Shown here piece after piece: positions 41,170-42,533 of a DNA stretch of 64,000 bases. Under the pieces are notes generated by a model that saw only the letters and a list, made by a program, of their open reading frames with translations, searched no databases and was not told where the DNA came from. Source of the DNA: Blattabacterium cuenoti (GTDB lineage Bacteria > Bacteroidota > Bacteroidia > Flavobacteriales > Blattabacteriaceae); assembly GCF_014251755.1 (NCBI RefSeq), contig NZ_CP059200.1, positions 226,286-290,285 of the forward strand. The letters are read 5' to 3'. The position numbers were made by a program, and so were the translations under genes. Each line of letters opens with the position of its first letter. Within the stretch, counting starts at the first letter, position 1.

Positions 41170-42533
41170 ATGAAAAAAAAATTTATAGTTGTATTAGGTG
41201 GAGGAGAAAGTGGAGTAGGAGCAGCTTTATTAGCTAAGAAAAATGGATTAAAAACATTTTTATCGGATTCTGGAATTATTATAAATAAATACAAAAAAAT
41301 TTTAATAAAGAATAAAATTCCTTTTGAAGAAAAAGGACATACAGAGAATATTATCATTCAAAATGCTATTAAAGTGATAAAAAGTCCTGGAATTTCTAGA
41401 AATAATCCTTTGATAAAAAAAATCAATTATTTAGGGATTCCTATACAATCCGAATTAGAATTCGGTAAAAGTTATATAGAAAATTCTTATGTTATTGGAA
41501 TTACAGGAAGTAATGGAAAAACAACGACCTGTTCCATTATTTATAAAATACTTAAAAAAGAAGGAATGAATGTAGAAATAGCAGGAAATATTGGACAGAG
41601 TTTTTCTAAAAACATTATAAAAAAAAAGATATTTATATATTAGAAATGAGTAGTTTTCAATTAGATGATTGTTTGAATTTTCGTTCAAATATTGCCGTAT
41701 TATTAAACATAACAAGAGATCATTTAAATAGATATGATAATAATATTGAGAATTATATTGATTCCAAATTTCGAATAGCAACTTTTCAAAAAAAAGAAGA
41801 TATTTTCATTTATAATCATGATGATCCTATTATAAGAGAGGGAATAAAAAAATATGCCATTGCATCTCATTGTATTCCTTTTTCTATGAAGGAAGAATTG
41901 CATGTTGGAGCTTATATAAAAGCTAACAAAATATTTATTCGAAATCGAAAAAATCAAGAAATATATTTTTTAAATGTAAAAGATATTCCTTTAATAGGAG
42001 ATCATAATCTCTATAATATTATGGCTTCATTAATTATATCCGAAATATTAAACGTAAAAAAAGAATCAATAATTTCCATACTATTAAAATTGAAATCAAT
42101 AGAACATCGTATGGAAAAAATATCAAATATAAATGGAGTACAATTTATTAATGATTCTAAAGCCACTAATGTAAATGCCGTTTTTTATGCATTAAAAAGT
42201 ATAAATGCGCCTATTATATGGATAGTAGGAGGAGAAGATAAAGGAAATAATTATGTAGAATTAATTCCTTTGGTTAAAAAAAAAGTAAAAGCCATAATTT
42301 GTTTAGGAAAAAATAATGAAAAAATTATAAATTTTTTTAAAAATATCATTGATATCATTTTGGAAACAAAAAACATTAAAAAAGCTGTTTATATGGCTTA
42401 TATATTATCCTATCAGGGAGATAATGTTTTATTTTCTCCTGCTTGTTCTAGTTTTGATCTTTTTAAAGATTATAAAGAAAGAGGAAATCAATTTAAGCAA
42501 GAAGTAAGAAAACTAATTTATGAAAGTTTATGA
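41170..42533 (+). pseudogene. murD: murD interrupted by a one-base slip in a poly(A) tract, possibly still functional
   Basis: MurD adds D-glutamate to UDP-MurNAc-L-alanine. The N-terminal part (41170 to a TAG at 41641-41643) has the ATP loop ITGSNGKTTTCSI. The C-terminal part (open from 41646) has SSFQLDDC, TRDHLNRYD, FINDSKATN and GGEDKGNNY. The reading frame shifts in an A9 run at 41619-41627. One added A gives IKKKDIYILEMSSFQ across the junction and a single 454-codon protein of normal MurD length. Everything else looks conserved, so recent loss, a sequencing error, or rescue by transcriptional slippage are all possible. It overlaps ftsW by 14 bases. Confidence 0.93.
41619..41627 (+). other. 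A9 tract at the murD frameshift (possible slippage site)
   Basis: Nine consecutive A bases precede GATATT. The upstream frame reads ATA-AAA-AAA-AAG and then stops at 41641. Insertion of one A restores the downstream murD frame. RNA polymerase slippage on such runs would give a mix of in-frame and out-of-frame transcripts. Confidence 0.6.

Follow-up and report, generated by a model that had tools for sequence, protein, structure and literature searches.

The locus examined here raises a simple question: can murD, a gene that is cut in two by a one-base shift in a run of A, still be a working gene and, if so, at which step of its expression is the frame restored? The gene lies in a window of 64,000 nucleotides (the whole stretch of DNA analysed), which corresponds to positions 226,286 to 290,285 of a 625,920-bp single-contig Blattabacterium genome whose nearest named relatives are Blattabacterium cuenoti, a cockroach symbiont. 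It sits within a division and cell-wall cluster, with mraY on one side and ftsW on the other. An initial annotation of this DNA, made by reading the letters, had described the other murein genes of the window as intact, and this is indeed what we found: murE, mraY, ftsW, murG, murC, ftsI, ftsQ, and ftsA are all unbroken ORFs. We looked for a second copy of murD in the same genome and found none. The features of the locus, together with those of three other split genes located outside the window, are listed in Table 1.

Table 1. Features of the split murD gene (positions in the window) and of three other genes split at A-runs (approximate positions in the same genome, outside the window).
Feature	Position	Strand	Description
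murD N-terminal ORF	41170..41643	+	157 aa; N-terminal domain plus the portion of the central ATPase domain that carries the P-loop (GSNGKTT); TIGR01087 positions 2-146
murD C-terminal open frame	41610..42533	+	307 codons and stop; one base out of phase; LExSSFQL motif to C-terminus
A9 run	41619..41627	+	−1 frameshift site, presumed slippage site; exactly nine As
Premature TAG	41641..41643	+	reached when murD is read without a shift
ATG in C-terminal frame	41646..41648	+	Met of LEMSSFQL, possible restart; in 12 of the 23 split genomes only
nadD (NAD synthesis)	~330064-330110 (genome)	−	split at an A10 run
mvk (mevalonate kinase)	~562382-562421 (genome)		split at an A10 run
topA	~362391-362431 (genome)		split at an A11 run

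The initial annotation had proposed that a single base splits one murD gene spanning 41170 to 42533, a reading borne out by the two ORFs, which match the MurD model TIGR01087 on either side of the break and make up a whole-profile match to this family. The C-terminal frame accounts for positions 159-440 of the 441 in the model, with 263.7 bits (cut-off 211.95); since the two ORFs together cover positions 2-146 and 159-440, murD is otherwise complete, and the break thus separates the P-loop from the LExSSFQL motif within the central ATPase domain. The single shift aside, both frames are open. The orthologue from the Blattabacterium of Blattella (Bge), which is in frame, aligns with solved MurD structures over its entire length. 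The two frames share 34 nt, a stretch that spans the A-run, and the run is read in phase as ATA AAA AAA AAG. The earlier count of nine As was right, as was their placement; the C-terminal ORF that it had started at 41646 was confirmed in our ORF reading (41646-42533, 295 aa when counted from the ATG). It had also given the correct end for the N-terminal ORF, but not the correct context, as the stop does not directly follow AAA-AAA-AAG: four codons (ATA TTT ATA TAT) intervene.

Comparing murD in close relatives was one of the checks proposed with the initial annotation, and we carried it out across the genus. The gene is present in all 49 Blattabacterium genomes examined, with both halves kept in every one of them; it is out of frame at the same A-run in 23 and in frame in the other 26. 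All 23 splits are in the −1 phase (none in the +1 phase), and each falls in an uninterrupted stretch of 9-14 As, so that a pure A-run of at least nine at the shift and a frameshift conserved between species, two features expected of slippage, are both found here. The in-frame genes carry 0-13 As at this site, several of the runs being interrupted by other bases. Published genomes fall in both groups: murD is split in G016, taken as BPAA of Panesthia, and also in two further named records, ESCALves and AMAZOsp; it is in frame in G042 (taken as Bge of Blattella), G044 (taken as BGIGA of Blaberus), and G046 (taken as BNCIN of Nauphoeta). Within the same 20 kb, other genes have A-run breaks in only one or two genomes each. 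In the genome studied here, just 4 of the 521 sense-strand A-runs of at least nine in coding regions coincide with a broken frame, and the murD break is common to 23 of the 49 genomes, which is beyond chance.

We then placed the split and intact states on a maximum-likelihood tree built from nine flanking genes (4039 columns). Eight changes of state are required, against a mean of 16-17 when the labels are shuffled, and no shuffle gave a number as low. A well-supported clade of 15 genomes, including the symbionts of Blaberus, Nauphoeta, and Panesthia, is split at its base by parsimony; three more split genomes (G038, G029, and G015) lie outside this large clade. Inside it, the frame has been regained by two different routes: G044 has ten As, and G046 (locus L116) has kept its nine As and restored the frame by losing two bases some 15 positions past the run, a deletion that also removes the stop. 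The one-base deletion in the murD A-run is thus real and inherited.

An untranslated reading frame is expected to drift toward a dN/dS of 1. Behind the break, the median dN/dS of murD is 0.22 for pairs of split genomes vs. 0.30 for pairs of intact ones, so that purifying selection continues downstream of the frameshift. The N-terminal half gives 0.17 for both kinds of pairs, and the neighboring murein genes give similar values (0.22 for split and 0.26 for intact pairs in murC; 0.18 and 0.21 in murG). This undiminished selection, the maintenance of the split throughout an entire clade, and the cases of regained frame together argue that a full-length MurD is still made, an inference drawn from the genomes that agrees with the earlier suggestion that the loss of MurD function would be hard to survive.

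The case is not unique to murD. We surveyed the 632 open frames of Bge against the genome studied here for breaks at A-runs of at least nine, and four genes are broken in the latter: murD, nadD, topA, and mvk. The reverse survey, for genes split at A-runs in Bge relative to the genome studied here, found no split gene; three hits were rejected, one being an upstream non-coding extension and the others ORFs that are not genes. Of the 49 genomes, 37 have a split nadD; in the loci read, the break always coincides with 10-11 uninterrupted As. Of these splits, 29 are in the −1 phase (which need +1) and eight, namely those of the genome studied here and seven relatives, are in the +1 phase (which need −1 or +2). 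For mvk, 17 genomes are split, every one in the −1 phase. The ratios behind the break in nadD and mvk are mostly below 0.5, with some noisy pairs above. topA is split in 13 genomes (11 in the −1 phase and two in the +1 phase); it is decaying in G016, contains an in-frame TGA ahead of the run in G044, and is absent or fragmentary in G038, G039, and G011, so a split A-run does not always mean that function is kept. In G046, topA (L210) has kept a shortened A-run and is back in frame through a downstream 2-base deletion, the second such repair in this genome. Nine of the genomes are free of all four splits.

Transcriptional slippage, the rescue put forward in the initial annotation, is the best fit to these data, and murD is probably still functional, its full-length product being obtained in this way. 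RNA polymerase would slip on the A9 run and insert one A (or 1 + 3n) in a share of the messages; the added A would join the two frames, and the corrected messages would be translated into a 454-residue MurD in which the N-terminal half is linked to DIYILEMSSFQLDDCLNFR. The uncorrected messages would give a dead fragment of 157 residues. Nine As is the common threshold length for transcriptional slippage in bacteria (PMC1088944). The purity of the run is a weak sign of selection, since conserved lysine codons are mostly AAA anyway (about 95%, with AAG at 4.6%) and the conservation of other in-frame A-runs is nearly as high.

An alternative that the initial annotation did not name is a −1 ribosomal slip: the message would faithfully keep its nine As, and the ribosome would step back by one base at A AAA AAG or A AAA AAA to produce full-length MurD. 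The phases fit this scheme as well, as every one of the 23 split murD genes can be corrected by a −1 slip and the mvk splits are likewise all −1; this uniformity, which −1 ribosomal frameshifting also predicts, counts against transcriptional slippage. Moreover, the reading ATA AAA AAA AAG includes both heptamers, and one or the other is found in phase, in the form X XXY YYZ, in the tracts listed. We nevertheless consider this explanation unlikely. No stable RNA structure that could act as a stimulator is found downstream of the run (z of +0.25 and +0.56 vs. shuffles), nor was any Shine-Dalgarno-like motif seen close upstream by inspection. The nadD gene is in the opposite phase in the genome studied here and in seven relatives: a polymerase varying the length of an A-run can serve both phases, whereas a single −1 ribosomal slip cannot, so that a second mechanism would be required. 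We infer that the shift probably takes place at transcription rather than at translation.

It is also conceivable that murD is a pseudogene, either of recent origin or in decay, and that the cell can do without MurD activity or obtains it from elsewhere, for example from a host gene. Murein genes encoded by the insect host do occur in other symbioses, and a broken frame with no second murD in the genome is what such a scenario would look like. This reading is very improbable, however, given that both halves persist in all 49 genomes, that dN/dS behind the break (0.22) equals that of other murein genes, and that the split, although ancestral to the 15-genome clade, has been followed by no further decay and by two returns to frame. 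We give slightly less credit still to a MurD made as two chains, in which translation would restart at the ATG at 41646 and the resulting second chain would assemble with the first into a working enzyme: this ATG, which is present in 12 split genomes, stands two bases past the stop, a geometry compatible with a restart, but 11 of the 23 lack an ATG at the site (nine have neither ATG nor GTG), the next ATG can be as far as 30-138 codons in, and the cut divides the ATP-binding central domain, leaving the P-loop on one chain and the LExSSFQL motif on the other. Finally, the sequencing or assembly error that the initial annotation had kept as its plain alternative, homopolymers being indeed prone to errors, is effectively excluded, because 23 genomes, including a published one taken as BPAA of Panesthia, have murD broken in the same way at this A-run and cluster strongly on the tree, while only 4 of 521 A-runs are broken in the genome studied here.

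The murD A-run might further act as an evolvable dose setting for murein synthesis, the out-of-frame state cutting MurD down to the slipped fraction; we regard this extension as rather improbable. Lineages would then enter and leave a low-output state, as the eight changes on the tree might reflect, perhaps because little murein is needed by a bacterium that lives sheltered inside host cells.

Genes frameshifted in poly(A) tracts and rescued by transcriptional slippage have been described in Buchnera and Blochmannia (Tamas et al. 2008; Wernegreen et al. 2010, as cited in PMC3017870 and PMC5009743). The resemblance with Blattabacterium murD is close: an AT-rich obligate insect symbiont, a one-base shift in an A-run of at least nine, a gene that is otherwise intact, shared between species, and kept under constraint, with cell-wall genes among the known cases. 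On the other hand, Blattabacterium is a Bacteroidota symbiont, the gene is a different one (murD), and 49 genomes rather than a few are available; gains and returns to frame are repeated, one of the returns being due to a second-site deletion. In Thermus thermophilus dnaX (PMC1088944), a nine-A run likewise allows slippage to other frames, but there it yields a second, shorter product of an in-frame gene, whereas murD would need slippage for its sole functional product. The −1 ribosomal frameshifting of E. coli dnaX and of IS elements shares with murD an A AAA AAG heptamer in the correct phase; unlike in these systems, no stimulatory structure was found at murD, and not every frameshifted gene in this genome is in the −1 phase.

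Among the papers available, judged by title and abstract, our literature search found no report of the murD split or of this kind of rescue in Blattabacterium, and frameshifts go unmentioned in a recent study of Blattabacterium pathways. The kind of phenomenon is already known from Buchnera and Blochmannia; the novelty lies in the group of organisms, in murD as the affected gene, in how many genomes are involved, and in the gains and losses of the break that can be seen among them. Frameshift rescue at A-tracts would thereby be extended from gammaproteobacterial symbionts to an ancient symbiont of the Bacteroidota, the association of Blattabacterium with cockroaches being more than 200 million years old (PMC9603385), and with dozens of genomes at hand, the gain, persistence, and reversal of frameshifts can be traced on a tree. 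Blattabacterium genes listed as pseudogenes, such as the mevalonate kinase gene, so annotated under the name mvaK in at least one published genome (PMC6039017), may be working genes; likewise, murD, nadD, and mvk should not be dropped from metabolic reconstructions on the grounds of a split A-run.

Two further essential murein genes show isolated A-run breaks: an A9/A10 run splits murG in two genomes (L110 in G033 and L133 in G003), and A11 runs split murE in two others (L118 in G019 and L143 in G008). In the coding regions of the genome studied here, runs of at least nine comprise 521 A-runs on the sense strand vs. 117 T-runs.
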